Source: a virus. From it: 29,271 nt of DNA. Of the stretch, positions 16,814-22,118 are shown piece by piece. The position numbers and the translations under genes were made by a program. Numbering within the stretch: the stretch's first letter is position 1; each line of letters begins with the position of its first letter. The stretch spans positions 1-29,271 of the IMG/VR virus record IMGVR_UViG_3300017783_000137. The stretch is one strand, 5' to 3'. The notes beneath the pieces are model-generated. The model saw only the letters and a list, made by a program, of their open reading frames with translations, was not told the DNA's origin and ran no database searches.

Positions 16814-17200
16814 TTACTTACCACCAGCACGTTTAGCGTCATGGTCCTGTGTCATCTGTAGCATCTTCTGCTTCATGCGATCTTTACTCGCTTTCTTAGC
16901 AGCAGAGTCATCTGCTTTTGATTCTTTGGGTGGTGCTTCGCACTCTTCCTTTTTAACATCCTGACCAGGCTCATACCATTTGCCATCGCCATCAGAATCT
17001 TGCCAACGCTTACCTGCTTTTGCTGCAGCGATGTGCTTTTCTTTTGCTTTTTTCTTGGCGGCTTCTTTCAACTCCTCAACAGAGGATTGAATACGCTTTC
17101 TTAGATTTTCAGACATGAGATCTTCTTTCTTAGGGTTGATAGTAACGTTACCCTTTTTGGTTGTTTTTAGAGAGGACTTCTCTGAACCCATTGGTTTCAT
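16814..17200 (-). CDS. Lysine-rich protein with DxDxDG calcium-type loop, 128 aa
   Basis: The protein is highly charged: a Lys-rich helical part (SVEELKEAAKKKAKEKHIAA), then RWQDSDGDGKWYEPGQDV at about residues 65-82, where D68, D70, D72 and G73 form a DxDxDG loop like the start of an EF-hand or dockerin site, then an acidic/Lys tail. The twelfth loop position is Gly rather than Glu, so calcium binding is not certain. It overlaps the previous gene by ATGA with a strong GGAGGAG site. A TATAAATA box lies 59 bp upstream. Probably a late virion or scaffold-related protein. Confidence 0.78.
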   Translation of the reverse strand: MKPMGSEKSSLKTTKKGNVTINPKKEDLMSENLRKRIQSSVEELKEAAKKKAKEKHIAAAKAGKRWQDSDGDGKWYEPGQDVKKEECEAPPKESKADDSAAKKASKDRMKQKMLQMTQDHDAKRAGGK

Positions 17201-18084
17201 TCCATCTCCTCCATTGCTTTTAATTCTGCATCAGTAAACAGTCCTGACTCAGACAGTTTATTTATAAACTCTTCATTCTTCTTGTCAGCCTCTTTCTTCT
17301 TTAGTGCTGCTTTACGGAATGTTAGATCAGTGCGACTGCCACTGTCCATCTTGCCCTGACTTTCAGGTTTCTTAGACCCACCAGCAGGTTGAGCACCAGC
17401 ATCACTACCAGTCCTTCTGCCCTGAGCATACTTGGATCCACTCATCTTAGAGTCGCCAGAGACCATCTTGCCTGCATCAGATCTACTGTCCTGATACTGC
17501 TTCTCAGTCTGACCGTGCTTACCCTTGTAGAGCTCTTCGATCTCCTCTTCCTTCACGCAGTTAGGGACTTCCTTACCGCCTTTATTCTTAGTGCCGCTTG
17601 CCTTGTATCCTGCCCAGCATGTGGAAGCACCAACGTTTTTACGTGCTGCTTTCATACCCTCAAGCATTTCCTGGTGGAGATCTTCGATATCAATACCGAC
17701 ACCCTCACTCTTGCTAGTAACACCGAGATCTGCTGCATCCTTTGCAGTCTTCTCTCCTTTCTTACCAACAACAATGTAACGACCGTCTGCCTTCTTACCA
17801 GTAATCAGCATAGACTGACCACCAGACTGGACTACACGTCCAACATTACGATCACCATCACTCTGACTCTTCTTCTTAGCAACTGACTCACGATCAATTT
17901 GGAATCCAGCATACCCCTCAACTTGAGGTTCGTATGCATCAAGGACTTCCATCACCTTCATCACGCCATTGTGTAAGCGATTAGTTTTAGGTAGGGTGTC
18001 CTCTTCAATTGCTTTGAGAATATACGCCTGCTCAGTAGGATTATAGTCCATTAAGGCGGCAGACACCAGCATTTCTAAGGTCAT
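17197..18084 (-). CDS. Conserved late phage protein with CW..NCV motif
   Basis: The 295-aa protein starts MTLEMLVSAALMDYNPTEQA, has a basic middle, and at about residues 155-177 the motif CWAGYKASGTKNKGGKEVPN then CV, with C156 and C176, a sequence shared by several virion or prohead-core proteins of marine T4-like phages (from memory). The C-terminal third is Lys/Ser/Gly-rich and likely disordered. The frame opens at a TTG (18153), but the ATG at 18084 is preferred because it lies about 30 nt after a CTAAATAG late box. A head-related role is likely but not proven. Confidence 0.75.
   Translation of the reverse strand: MTLEMLVSAALMDYNPTEQAYILKAIEEDTLPKTNRLHNGVMKVMEVLDAYEPQVEGYAGFQIDRESVAKKKSQSDGDRNVGRVVQSGGQSMLITGKKADGRYIVVGKKGEKTAKDAADLGVTSKSEGVGIDIEDLHQEMLEGMKAARKNVGASTCWAGYKASGTKNKGGKEVPNCVKEEEIEELYKGKHGQTEKQYQDSRSDAGKMVSGDSKMSGSKYAQGRRTGSDAGAQPAGGSKKPESQGKMDSGSRTDLTFRKAALKKKEADKKNEEFINKLSESGLFTDAELKAMEEME
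17259..17266 (-). promoter_or_regulatory. T4-type late promoter TATAAATA inside a gene
   Basis: Exact TATAAATA on the minus strand, within codons for EFINKL near the 3' end of the preceding gene and 59 bp upstream of the 128-aa gene. An internal late promoter is plausible, but the match may reflect coding sequence. Confidence 0.55.
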
Positions 18085-18115: not shown

Positions 18116-18123
18116 CTATTTAG
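18116..18123 (-). promoter_or_regulatory. Late-type promoter CTAAATAG
   Basis: CTAAATAG overlaps the stop codon of the nucleotidyltransferase gene and precedes the ATG at 18084 by about 31 bp. It supports that ATG as the true start. Confidence 0.6.
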
Positions 18124-19240
18124 TTTCAGAAGTTTTTCTAATTTCTGAGGCAAACTGACTAAACTTTTTGGTTGCTTGACCAGGGGTCATATCTTGTAAT
18201 GCCTTTCTATATAGATCTGTGCCGACTTTCCAGTCGTTTCCACTGCCATCGTCAGCAGAATAGTTGCTTTGATCCTTTGATGTGTCAGCAGCCTTTGCCC
18301 ATGCTGATTGAATGCCATCACCCTCTGAAATCTCAGTGATGTGCTGCAACCATGCACGATTCTCTCCACCATATTGATCTTTGAATACGATGTAGTTGGT
18401 GCCACGGTGGACAACTTCACCACGGATACCACTATCATCATGCTCGATAATAGCACCCACCTTGAAGATGTGATCCAGCATATAGTGATCACGGAATGCT
18501 TCAAAGTCTAGGATAGGAGCATACTCCCATACAGATTCATGCACAGACTCACCCTTCTTACCCTTCTTCGCTTTGGGTGGTGGGGTCATACCAGTGAGAA
18601 CGTCCTGCATCAACTGTTTGCTGTGCTTGTAACCACCAGATCCAGCGTGGAATGATTCATGATCACCACTCTGTGCATGTGCTCTCTGCTTACTGGCAGA
18701 CATGTTTTCCACAGGGTCATCACTATCGTCAGCACGAGCACCAGCAGACTTAATGTTTATGCTCTTGAAGTCATAGTGCATTCCATTATATTTGTTAGTC
18801 AGTTTCTCAAATTCTTTCACACGGTCGTCACCAACAACCATGGTTACATGCTCATGACCCTCATCATGTAGGTCTCTGAGGATGTCAAATACATTCTTAT
18901 GCTGCTCATTGTTTTGGATCGCATCCTTGTGACCCTTAAACATCTTACGCATGTGATCTACTTTCTGCCCAGCAGTGAGCGGATTCTTCTTGTGATCTTG
19001 GGACCGTGATGGATAGATACGGTAGTTACCTGAGTCCCCCGAATGCGCTTTGACAGCATCCAACAACTTACCATGACCAGCATGAGGAGGATTAAACCTA
19101 CCAAAAGTAAAGGCGACATGTTTGTCTTCTAGTTTCTTATCTGCTGCCGTAGAGGTCTTACCCTTAGATGAAGTAGCAGGTTTCTTTGTTGCAGTCTTTG
19201 CTGCAGCAGCTGCTTCTTTGATGAATTCTATAAAACGCAT
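18116..19240 (-). CDS. HxGH nucleotidyltransferase with capsid-targeting-like N-terminus
   Basis: The protein has a cytidylyltransferase-fold core: AFTFGRFNPPHAGH at about residues 43-56 with H53-x-G-H56, later TMVVGDDRVKEFEK, and NMSASKQR as the second phosphate-binding motif. It would transfer a nucleotidyl group, as in NMN or coenzyme A precursor adenylation. The C-terminal half (from VWEYAPILDFEAFRDHYMLD) is of unknown fold. The ATG at 19240 gives MRFIEFIKEA, close to the T4 internal-protein capsid-targeting peptide MKTYQEFIAEA, with a possible gp21 cleavage site after IKE. An ATG at 19264 is less likely because the late start would fall on it. Confidence 0.82.
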   Translation of the reverse strand: MRFIEFIKEAAAAAKTATKKPATSSKGKTSTAADKKLEDKHVAFTFGRFNPPHAGHGKLLDAVKAHSGDSGNYRIYPSRSQDHKKNPLTAGQKVDHMRKMFKGHKDAIQNNEQHKNVFDILRDLHDEGHEHVTMVVGDDRVKEFEKLTNKYNGMHYDFKSINIKSAGARADDSDDPVENMSASKQRAHAQSGDHESFHAGSGGYKHSKQLMQDVLTGMTPPPKAKKGKKGESVHESVWEYAPILDFEAFRDHYMLDHIFKVGAIIEHDDSGIRGEVVHRGTNYIVFKDQYGGENRAWLQHITEISEGDGIQSAWAKAADTSKDQSNYSADDGSGNDWKVGTDLYRKALQDMTPGQATKKFSQFASEIRKTSETK

Positions 19241-19270
19241 TTGTCTCGGGAAAAACTCAGTCATATATTC

Positions 19271-19278
19271 TATTTATC
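19271..19278 (-). promoter_or_regulatory. Late-type promoter GATAAATA
   Basis: GATAAATA differs from the T4 late box by one base. It overlaps the stop region of the ligase-like gene and lies 30 bp before the preferred ATG at 19240. Confidence 0.6.
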
Positions 19279-20464
19279 AACCCCAGTTCTTTTCCACAGT
19301 AAAGTTTGCTCTGGAAAACTCTAGACGGTCTACCAATTTGATAGCAGCACCACTCCTGATAGCAACAAAACCTTCTGGGGCAGTCACTTTGAAACCATTC
19401 TCAGTCTTGATGAAGGTGCCAATACCCTGGACCTTCTCCAGTTGACGGATGACTATAGTCTTAGACGCAGCAAGATTCATATAGGAAGCGACAGTCATGT
19501 AAATGGATTGGGAGTGTGCGTTGATAAACTTCAGACCATCATCCATAATCTTCTGATACTTCTCCTTGGTCTTCTCTTGCTTCTTAGAGTCAATCTCTTT
19601 CTGTAATGCACCCTTATAGTATCCACTGAATCCAGCAGCTACAGCTCTAGCATTAGGAAGAGCACGTCCTGTACGGATGAAACTATTGAAATAAATCTTA
19701 AACATAGAAGCAAGCATAAACTTACCCTCACCTGTTGACTGTAGCACGTCAAGGAATTTGGATGCCTGCTTGAGAGATCCTTCTGCTTTCCTGATAGATG
19801 CTTGATACTTTACGAATTCTGCAGGGGTGAATAGAGTTGCGTCCTGAGTGCTGAAGTCTGAAGAGAAGACCATAACATCAGGCACATTCTGCATCTTGGA
19901 TACATCAACACCGAAACTAGCAGTCATGTCACGCAACTCAGGACCGCCATTATAGGTAGTGTGAAAGACGATACCCAGTTTTGCACGGGCAACCTTACGA
20001 CCCAGGTCTGATTTTGTAGGTACAGCATAGGTAATAGTGTTTGGTTGGAAGGTGATTGACTGCTCACCACCCATCATACGTGTGCTCTTACCAGTGGTGA
20101 ATAGAAGATCACCCTGAATCACACCCTCAAAAGGGAGTTTAGGCAGTTGCTTCAGACACTCCTTGAGCATTGCTGCAAGGTTGCCAGTGTAGAGAGCATC
20201 AACATCAGCAAACGATTGACAGATCTTAGGGACTTGAGCAAAGACACCCTTGGTGCCCACGAAGAATCCTCCGTTAGTGGGGTGGAAACCACAGATCACA
20301 GCAGGAGCACCGTCCCACTTGGTAGTGACACGCATTGTAGATCTAGGCTCCGTCAGCATGACGCCTAACTCATTAAGAAACTTGATCGCATTGCGACCAC
20401 CTGCTGATCCCTGGTTAAGGATGTCATCTTCTAGGTGCTCTAGGTGGGTGTTTTGCTTTGCCAT
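19277..20464 (-). CDS. KxDG ligase-superfamily nucleotidyltransferase-like protein
   Basis: The 395-aa protein starts MAKQNTHLEHLEDDILNQGS and shows, in the right order, the motifs of covalent nucleotidyltransferases (DNA/RNA ligases): motif I K49-W-D-G52, an IQGDLLF motif III-like segment at 116-122, a GIVFHTTYNG segment like motif IIIa, EGFV at 364-367 (motif IV) and AIKLVDR with K376 (motif V). Motif III has Asp where Glu is usual. I infer a ligase or capping-like enzyme that forms an enzyme-NMP; the family is usually left unannotated in cyanophages. It lies between nuclease-like and HxGH nucleotidyltransferase genes. A TATAAT stretch lies just upstream. Confidence 0.7.
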   Translation of the reverse strand: MAKQNTHLEHLEDDILNQGSAGGRNAIKFLNELGVMLTEPRSTMRVTTKWDGAPAVICGFHPTNGGFFVGTKGVFAQVPKICQSFADVDALYTGNLAAMLKECLKQLPKLPFEGVIQGDLLFTTGKSTRMMGGEQSITFQPNTITYAVPTKSDLGRKVARAKLGIVFHTTYNGGPELRDMTASFGVDVSKMQNVPDVMVFSSDFSTQDATLFTPAEFVKYQASIRKAEGSLKQASKFLDVLQSTGEGKFMLASMFKIYFNSFIRTGRALPNARAVAAGFSGYYKGALQKEIDSKKQEKTKEKYQKIMDDGLKFINAHSQSIYMTVASYMNLAASKTIVIRQLEKVQGIGTFIKTENGFKVTAPEGFVAIRSGAAIKLVDRLEFSRANFTVEKNWG

Positions 20465-20517
20465 ACCTGTATTATACTTGAATTAGATCGGCCTCGCAAC
20501 CGATGGTGGACACTTCT

Positions 20518-21909
20518 CTAACTGATCTTGTAGTAGACAGATGACTTGTCTGACTGGGAAGCAGCATACAAATACATCTCTTTCATTGCATCATCTTTCT
20601 TTGACTGAGACTTCAACCAGTCTAAAAATCTCAACCCTGACAACTTACTATACTTCCAAGACTGTTTCTGATCTGCAATGACTGCCATTGCATCCTTCTT
20701 ATTAGAAGGGAGTCCTGTAGCACGATGCTTCTGAAGCAAGGTATATATCTCATTATCCAATGTGTTTCCAGCACACTTTGACCAGTTTGCTTCTGCAGGG
20801 AGACCTTTAAATCCTGCCTGTGTTAGTAGTTGTCTAAGCACTGCACCTTGAATCTTACCCTGAGCAGCATTCTCCCCTTTCAATTCTAACTTCCAATCTC
20901 CTTTCTTATCACCACCAAAGTTTCTGGCCTGAAACTTATTAAAAGTGCCAGCACCATAGTGATAATAGACATCCATAGGGTGTGAGCTGTCACCTTTACG
21001 TCCATTATCAAAGGTTAGTGTGTATGAATGATACCCTGCTGATTCCTTTCTCTTCCTCTCTATAGGAGTGTCAGCATTTAGTAGTTTGATTGTGGGTGAT
21101 GCTCCGAGTTTCTTAAGGGAGAATCCTACAAGATCCTTGGACTTGTTTAACTCCTGCAGATAATTGTTAAGACAATCGATTGTATTTTCCTTTGCAAGTT
21201 TAGCAGCAATTGTTGATTTCTTACTCTTCTTTACTGCCCAGATGTCTGCAGGATTCCACTTGTCCTCAGTAGCAAGATTACTACCAGCCTTGACTCTCTT
21301 AAATGCTTTACTAATCTGCTCCTCAATCAATGTATCGCCACGTAGGAATTCATACTGCCCTGCACCACCTCCCAGTGTCTTCTTGATCAATGCAGCACCC
21401 TTCAAAGATGATTCTTTCCAGTCCTTTGGAAGACCTGAGATGTCATCCAACTTAACACCAGGGGCGTCAGTATACATCATTCCACACTCATAATCTTTCT
21501 CAGTGATCACTCGCAGATCTCTACACTGATAAAGCATTGCTGCATATACACACTGTGCAGACTCTACAATCTTTGTGACATCTGCACCAGCACCAGACCC
21601 ACCAGAGGGTGGTTTGATTTCAAGTCTAACTATTTTCTTACCATCGGTGCCAGCAATTATTACATCAAGCTCATTACTCTTCTTAATTACCTCAACATTG
21701 TCTCTTGCAAGAGCGTCTGCAATGTTTTCTGTTGCCTGGTCCCTCTGTGATTGAGGGACAAAAATCTTTAGTGCGATCTGCACTTTTTTATTAGACTCTT
21801 TAGTCTCTACCTTCTTTACATCAAAGGAATAGTATGCATAATTTTCGCCACCCAGTGCTTCCATTACCTTTCTAAAGGTGGCACTATTTGCCTCAGGGAC
21901 ATTAAGCAT
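20518..21909 (-). CDS. PD-(D/E)xK nuclease-like late protein
   Basis: The 463-aa protein is not assigned to a named family. Residues 80-100 read ELDVIIAGTDGKKIVRLEIK, i.e. D82 followed 15 residues later by E97-x-K99, the spacing of a PD-(D/E)xK nuclease core, then PPSGGSGAG and a helix (DVTKIVESAQCVYAAMLY). Further on there is KWNPADIWAVKK at about 216-227 and a basic, helical C-terminus. A CTAAATAG late box lies 24 bp before the ATG, so it is probably made late. Nuclease activity is inference; a virion or packaging-linked role is possible. The gene is intact. Confidence 0.7.
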   Translation of the reverse strand: MLNVPEANSATFRKVMEALGGENYAYYSFDVKKVETKESNKKVQIALKIFVPQSQRDQATENIADALARDNVEVIKKSNELDVIIAGTDGKKIVRLEIKPPSGGSGAGADVTKIVESAQCVYAAMLYQCRDLRVITEKDYECGMMYTDAPGVKLDDISGLPKDWKESSLKGAALIKKTLGGGAGQYEFLRGDTLIEEQISKAFKRVKAGSNLATEDKWNPADIWAVKKSKKSTIAAKLAKENTIDCLNNYLQELNKSKDLVGFSLKKLGASPTIKLLNADTPIERKRKESAGYHSYTLTFDNGRKGDSSHPMDVYYHYGAGTFNKFQARNFGGDKKGDWKLELKGENAAQGKIQGAVLRQLLTQAGFKGLPAEANWSKCAGNTLDNEIYTLLQKHRATGLPSNKKDAMAVIADQKQSWKYSKLSGLRFLDWLKSQSKKDDAMKEMYLYAASQSDKSSVYYKIS

Positions 21910-21917
21910 AGTAGGAC

Positions 21918-22118
21918 TTAAAATTCGTCCAAACTATTTAGATATTTCTTTTCATTCTGATATGGTTTCTCTTCCCCAGTCCACAGTTTATAACCCTGCA
22001 CTACCTCTGGCAGTAACCACTGATCCACTCGATAGCAATGCTGCCAGTTGACAGGTTGAGCACAACCAACAACTACGACAGCAAAGAATGCTCGCAAGTG
22101 GATCCAGAGGGAGATCAT
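21918..22118 (-). CDS. Small putative lipoprotein, 66 aa
   Basis: The protein begins MISLWIHLRAFFAVVVVGCA, a hydrophobic segment with a lipobox-like VVGC, and continues QPVNWQHCYRVDQWLLPEVV to a Lys/Glu-rich C-terminus. It could be an inner- or outer-membrane lipoprotein, or simply an N-terminally anchored membrane protein. A spanin-type role would fit the size but no Pro-rich linker is seen. It starts one base into the MazG stop (TAATG) and ends 8 bp before the next gene; the late box of that gene lies inside it. Confidence 0.78.
   Translation of the reverse strand: MISLWIHLRAFFAVVVVGCAQPVNWQHCYRVDQWLLPEVVQGYKLWTGEEKPYQNEKKYLNSLDEF
21934..21941 (-). promoter_or_regulatory. Late-type promoter CTAAATAG
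   Basis: CTAAATAG lies 24 bp before the ATG of the nuclease-like gene, inside the end of the lipoprotein gene. Same octamer as at 18116-18123 and 9953-9960. Confidence 0.6.

Follow-up and report, generated by a model that had tools for sequence, protein, structure and literature searches.

In the virus record IMGVR_UViG_3300017783_000137, three large genes lie side by side on the minus strand, raising the question of whether they work together and to what end. We analyzed the whole 29271-base record (the window), which is of T4-like cyanomyovirus type and whose best DNA matches are S-SZBM1, S-WAM1, and P-TIM40. The original prediction had read the genes as a late-expressed, packaged trio, comprising a PD-(D/E)xK nuclease (gene 1), a KxDG ligase-type enzyme (gene 2), and an HxGH nucleotidyltransferase (gene 3). 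The adjoining open reading frames (ORFs) are present as described, encoding 463, 395, and 382 amino acids, and all three genes are genuine and conserved. In all, homologues of gene 2, which belongs to DUF6267, occur in 466 phage records and those of gene 3 in 552, several hundred of these records being cyanomyoviruses. Our tentative answer is a nucleic-acid processing module delivered in part by the virion, with two of its proteins carried in the capsid.

We analyzed how closely the genes keep together. Among 88 loci with enough downstream sequence, the transferase lay within 4 kb of DUF6267 in 80, at a median gap of 35 bp. In S-PM2 the two form a single 591-amino acid protein (S-PM2d138), in which DUF6267 (residues 5-398) is fused to a HIGH domain (residues 414-554); a search for such fusions in the IMG/VR loci found none there. 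Conservation of the gene order thus holds for genes 2 and 3 in most loci but is broken in S-SCSM1, where DUF6267 lies far from the homologues of genes 1 and 3, and in S-CREM2, whose transferase has no adjoining DUF6267. Because of these two phages, the linkage, though strong, falls short of universal. The gene order and the fusion come from this analysis, as do the motif conservation, promoter signals, and targeting signals described below.

Gene 3 is the HxGH nucleotidyltransferase that had been proposed, as its GRFNPPHAGH motif is joined by a PF01467 match (E = 1.6e-8; 35.3 bits vs. a cut-off of 21). Its best curated NCBIfam models are almost all nicotinamide mononucleotide (NMN) adenylyltransferases (NMNATs), to which gene 3 is closest, although the NMNAT equivalog cut-off was not reached (23 bits vs. 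112). We rejected "cytidylyltransferase" as its best name. It probably starts at M9 (19240), giving 374 amino acids, since GATAAATA lies ~36 bases upstream and in relatives a methionine falls at this position or beside it. Variants of the gene occur elsewhere. A 913-amino acid relative (L170:7183-9921) has a targeting-like start and, ahead of its HIGH domain, a P-loop kinase domain of PNK/zeta type (AAA_33, E = 2.8e-12). At another locus (L180:4801-5385) the gene immediately after DUF6267 encodes an adenylate kinase (ADK, E = 1.8e-40) that bears a targeting-like peptide; the association of kinases with the module was counted crudely, and these are used as two examples only. A further relative (L219:6584-8968) shows a weak Pol-beta nucleotidyltransferase match N-terminally and a DUF5824-like C-terminal part. 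Stenotrophomonas phage DLP_6 (L003), the sole NadV-bearing record of nine tested, also encodes DUF6267 and a 722-amino acid gene-3 relative.

If translation starts at M9, gene 3 begins with the T4-like capsid-targeting sequence (CTS) that had been claimed for it. In T4 targeting peptides, mainly residues 4 and 7 matter, and cleavage follows L/I-x-E (PMC9026906). CTS-like starts were found in 95 of 152 gene-3 homologues and 33 of 161 DUF6267 homologues, compared with 1 of 89 gene-1 homologues and 30 of 2416 other ORFs, many of these 30 lying in the same neighbourhoods. A reversed-sequence control with a stricter pattern gave 0 of 4505. When set beside the T4 internal proteins and Alt, the gene-3 family consensus shares targeting residues 4 and 7 and L/I-x-E at positions 8-10 with IPIII (PMC9026906), whereas the mature T4 proteins are unrelated to gene 3, and the CTS in the window is one residue shorter. 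In the literature searched, whose coverage was incomplete, only a T4 review combined CTS and cyanophages. In cyanophages the DUF6267 protein has no targeting peptide; peptide-bearing DUF6267 proteins were found in some non-cyanophages. Late boxes accompanied 11 of 30 DUF6267 genes with the peptide vs. 4 of 121 without it. This split between CTS-present and CTS-absent forms suggests that the same enzyme is capsid-delivered by some phages and cell-made by others.

Published virion data concern homologues of the window's proteins. Mass spectrometry of S-SZBM1, one of the window's nearest relatives, detected the transferase (S-SZBM1_140) and the next gene (S-SZBM1_139, in the place of gene 4 of the window), both of which were assigned from their length and position; the list contains neither DUF6267 nor the gene upstream of it, non-detection being weak evidence of absence. 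The S-SCSM1 annotation marks ORF89-93 as virion proteins, among them the gene-1 homologue ORF90 and the NMNAT-like ORF91, but not DUF6267. ORF154-156 of S-CREM2 were found in the virion by mass spectrometry, ORF154 being a gene-3 homologue, and T4-GC190 of S-SM1 is a virion-associated protein of the gene-3 family. Gene 3 belongs to the same family as these four NMNAT- or cytidylyltransferase-like virion proteins. Packaging, as originally suggested for the trio, is borne out for gene 3 by S-SZBM1, S-SCSM1, S-CREM2, and the peptide, and for one gene-1 homologue, but not for DUF6267 in cyanophages. The presence of gene-1 and gene-3 relatives in virions suggests that a nucleic-acid-handling toolkit may be delivered into the cell. 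Virion NMNAT-like proteins and a suggested NAD role are already published; those reports, in the text consulted, draw no link to DUF6267, to a targeting peptide, or to the nuclease-like slot described below. The DUF6267 link and the slot conservation appear new within the literature searched. Taken together, the fusion, the peptide, and the conserved slot make a testable functional unit out of genes labeled "hypothetical" and "cytidyltransferase".

The cyanophage late promoter is NATAAATA (PMC2984593). The late-type boxes reported before genes 1 and 3, TCTAAATA and GATAAATA, were both found, and TAAATA occurs 20 times on the coding strand of the window vs. twice on the other. NTAAATA precedes gene 1 in 91 of 94 distinct relatives (vs. 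0 of 150 gene interiors), gene 3 in 49 of 132, and DUF6267 in 50 of 141, there at a median of -68. In the window, DUF6267 has no upstream late box but a sigma-70-like promoter. TATAAT was found at -12 in 27 of 99 long-type DUF6267 relatives, compared with 3 of 1296 other ORFs at -14 to -10, and at -26 to -29 in 24 of 31 short-type relatives. Because it often has TATAAT instead of a late box, DUF6267 is not clearly late, and we rejected "late" as a label for all three genes: late expression is not supported for gene 2. Judged from its position, the TATAAT in the window (20471-20476, ~12 bases before the DUF6267 ATG) would have transcription begin roughly at the ATG, giving a near-leaderless transcript.

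The KxDG motif of gene 2 stood up well, K49WDG being invariant in 73 homologues. Q117 and D119 are likewise invariant in these 73 diverse sequences, and the ligase motif order is kept. A pattern of motifs III, IV, and V in order was found in 167 of 171 DUF6267 members, 39 of 2913 other ORFs, and 2.7% of shuffles. The predicted structure (predicted local distance difference test score, pLDDT, 88.3) sets the motifs on strands in the order that covalent nucleotidyltransferases should show, and it contains a helical insert. Foldseek matches to LigA adenylation domains and the fungal tRNA ligase Trl1 were weak (E 0.7-4). With T4 RNA ligase 2, LigA, and Trl1, DUF6267 shares the order KxDG...GD/GE...EGxV...K, but it differs by the large size of its helical insert and a conserved N-terminal HLEHxED. 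No description of DUF6267 was found in the literature searched, of which coverage was incomplete.

Gene 1 is probably PD-(D/E)xK-like, as far as its conserved residues tell, though not at the site first proposed. The proposed residues D82 and E97-x-K99 were not confirmed, and we rejected E97 and K99 as the active site, as position 97 is a glutamate in just 43 of 100 homologues. The virion homologue ORF90 of S-SCSM1 has no glutamate at that position, and a homologue at locus L136 is without residues 1-111 entirely. The superfamily assignment may hold at other residues, since E116, D222, S264, and K266, an acid-acid-(D/E/S)xK site, are conserved in all 100 homologues. Cfr10I and NgoMIV are PD-(D/E)xK enzymes with SxK active sites; gene 1 resembles them in its E...PxD...SxK pattern but differs in having no solved-structure match and, in its model, an insertion of two helices that separates D from SxK. 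In other phages, eight further families, linked by BLAST neither to gene 1 nor to each other, occupy the slot directly upstream of DUF6267. Across the nine slot families, D...(S/E)xK is conserved at 82-100%, and in the alignments D followed by S-x-K or E-x-K ranks among the most conserved positions. A regular expression for the motif matched 6 of 8 family representatives vs. 12% of shuffles, and several families comprise just 5-8 distinct sequences each; the slot's support for a PD-(D/E)xK-like site is therefore good but not decisive. A Pfam scan of all gene 1 alignment members returned zero enzyme families. Searching the PDB by sequence, with single proteins as well as with profiles, turned up no relatives, and PADLOC gave zero matches.

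In the module that we tentatively favor, the PD-(D/E)xK-like gene 1 and NMNAT-like gene 3 proteins would be made late and packaged, with a prohead protease removing the T4-type targeting peptide of gene 3. Once injected, gene 1 would trim or cut ends. In cyanophages DUF6267 would be produced inside the cell from a promoter of early type, and in some other phages it would apparently be co-packaged; it would form a lysine-nucleoside monophosphate intermediate and seal or adenylylate ends. Gene 3 would act in the same adenylate/NAD+ (nicotinamide adenine dinucleotide) chemistry, for example by regenerating NAD+ from NMN. We infer all of the module's activities and substrates, its injection, and its purpose in early repair or protection. 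The fuller proposal, that in marine phages including cyanomyoviruses a capsid-delivered nuclease and NAD-linked transferase work with DUF6267, as a new covalent ligase-type family, in an early cut-and-seal or end-protection kit, is doubtful. Several observations weigh against the favored module. The authors of the S-SCSM1 and S-CREM2 studies noted that virion detection could be carry-over, and DUF6267 has not been reported in any cyanophage virion. A Pfam scan of the DUF6267 alignment members matched no ligase family, DUF6267 being the sole match, and hhalign comparisons of DUF6267 with Rnl2, LigA, and other ligases were not significant, nor were hhalign comparisons against RelA, CCA, and Pol-beta sets; some of the comparison sets were small or crude, and a few of their domains were misframed. 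Support for the ligase assignment lies in its motif residues, with fold support weak, and "ligase-type" is for this reason a motif-based name. The AlphaFold model of gene 1 (pLDDT 93.3) resembles Pol-beta-type nucleotidyltransferases, which make up nearly all of its top 50 PDB hits; no PD-(D/E)xK enzyme is among those 50, contrary to the predicted nuclease fold.

This resemblance favors a reading in which gene 1 is a Pol-beta/RelA-type enzyme. The trio would then consist entirely of nucleotidyltransferases that differ in fold and have nucleotides or the ends of RNA as their targets. The top hits include TUTases, CCA enzymes, alarmone synthetases, and a CD-NTase, and viral matches outside the gene 1 family include YjbM, Tas1, and poly(A) polymerase. 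Yet the PDB hits are weak (best E 1.7e-3 with a template modeling (TM) score of 0.14, none at E<0.001, query-normalised TM <=0.18), the canonical GS...DxD is missing, gene 1 having a single acid in D222-I-W with W224 in place of the second, and the conserved E...D...SxK of the slot fits PD-(D/E)xK better. We regard this reading as quite unlikely. The main rival, unlikely to a lesser degree, is that a packaged NMNAT-like enzyme restores NAD+ early, against NADase defences or in favor of phage metabolism, with DUF6267 as an NAD+-linked partner. It is consistent with the top rank of NMNAT models for gene 3, with the NAD synthesis proposed by the S-SCSM1 authors, with the NadV and NadM salvage of NAD+ described in phages (PMC9503650), and with the kinase-bearing gene-3 relatives, which resemble NadR logic. 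Gene 3 shares a HIGH-superfamily NMNAT-like domain with phage NadM/NadR/NadV salvage, but 8 of the 9 phage records tested lack NadV (PF04095); gene 3 also falls below the NMNAT equivalog cut-offs, and NAD+ maintenance leaves the conserved nuclease-like slot unexplained. It is improbable that the packaged proteins serve chiefly in particle structure or core assembly and keep their enzyme-like motifs as relics. Their position among late head-type genes and their detection in virions speak for this, but residues of catalytic type never vary, even among very divergent homologues.

Table 1 Positions of genes, motifs, and signals in the window
Feature	Position	Strand	Remarks
Gene 1, 463 amino acids, phrog_1462 (function not annotated)	20518..21909	-	conserved residues PD-(D/E)xK-like; predicted fold nearest to Pol-beta-type nucleotidyltransferases
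Late-promoter-like box TCTAAATA upstream of gene 1	21935..21942	-	one mismatch to NATAAATA
E97-I98-K99 of gene 1, motif of the original prediction	21613..21621	-	E97 43/100, K99 80/100 homologues
E116 of gene 1, helix glutamate	21562..21564	-	invariant, 100/100 homologues
P220-A221-D222 of gene 1	21244..21252	-	P220 and D222 100/100 homologues
S264-L265-K266 (SxK) of gene 1	21112..21120	-	S264 and K266 100/100 homologues
Sigma-70-like promoter TTGCGA-N17-TATAAT	20471..20499	-	directly upstream of DUF6267
Gene 2, 395 amino acids, DUF6267 (PF19782), ligase-type nucleotidyltransferase motifs	19277..20464	-	helical insert ~residues 205-345
Motif I K49WDGAP of DUF6267	20303..20320	-	invariant, 73 sequences
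Motif IV-like E364GFV of DUF6267	19364..19375	-	E364, G365, V367 invariant in 73
Motif V-like K376LVDR of DUF6267	19325..19339	-	K376 invariant; V378, D379, R380 at least 90% (73 sequences)
Late-promoter box GATAAATA upstream of gene 3	19271..19278	-	matches NATAAATA
Gene 3, HIGH-superfamily nucleotidyltransferase, CTP_transf_like, NMNAT-like, 382-amino acid ORF	18116..19264	-	PF01467, NCBIfam
Capsid-targeting-like peptide MRFIEFIKEA of gene 3	19211..19240	-	T4 rules; cleavage-like site between IxE and A
GRFNPPHAGH (HxGH) of gene 3	19073..19102	-	G55, R56, G63, H64 84/86
SAGAR of gene 3, equivalent of NMNAT ISxTxxR motif	18734..18748	-	S173, G175, R177 84/86
Gene 4, downstream partner, 295 amino acids from ATG 18084	17197..18084	-	own late-like box 18124-18117

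Around the three genes, mazG and a small gene precede them, and gene 4 comes after. Gene 4 probably starts at the ATG at 18084 and not at the listed TTG at 18153. Its late-like box falls inside the end of the upstream gene, and NTAAATA was found upstream of gene 4 in 57 of 79 relatives.

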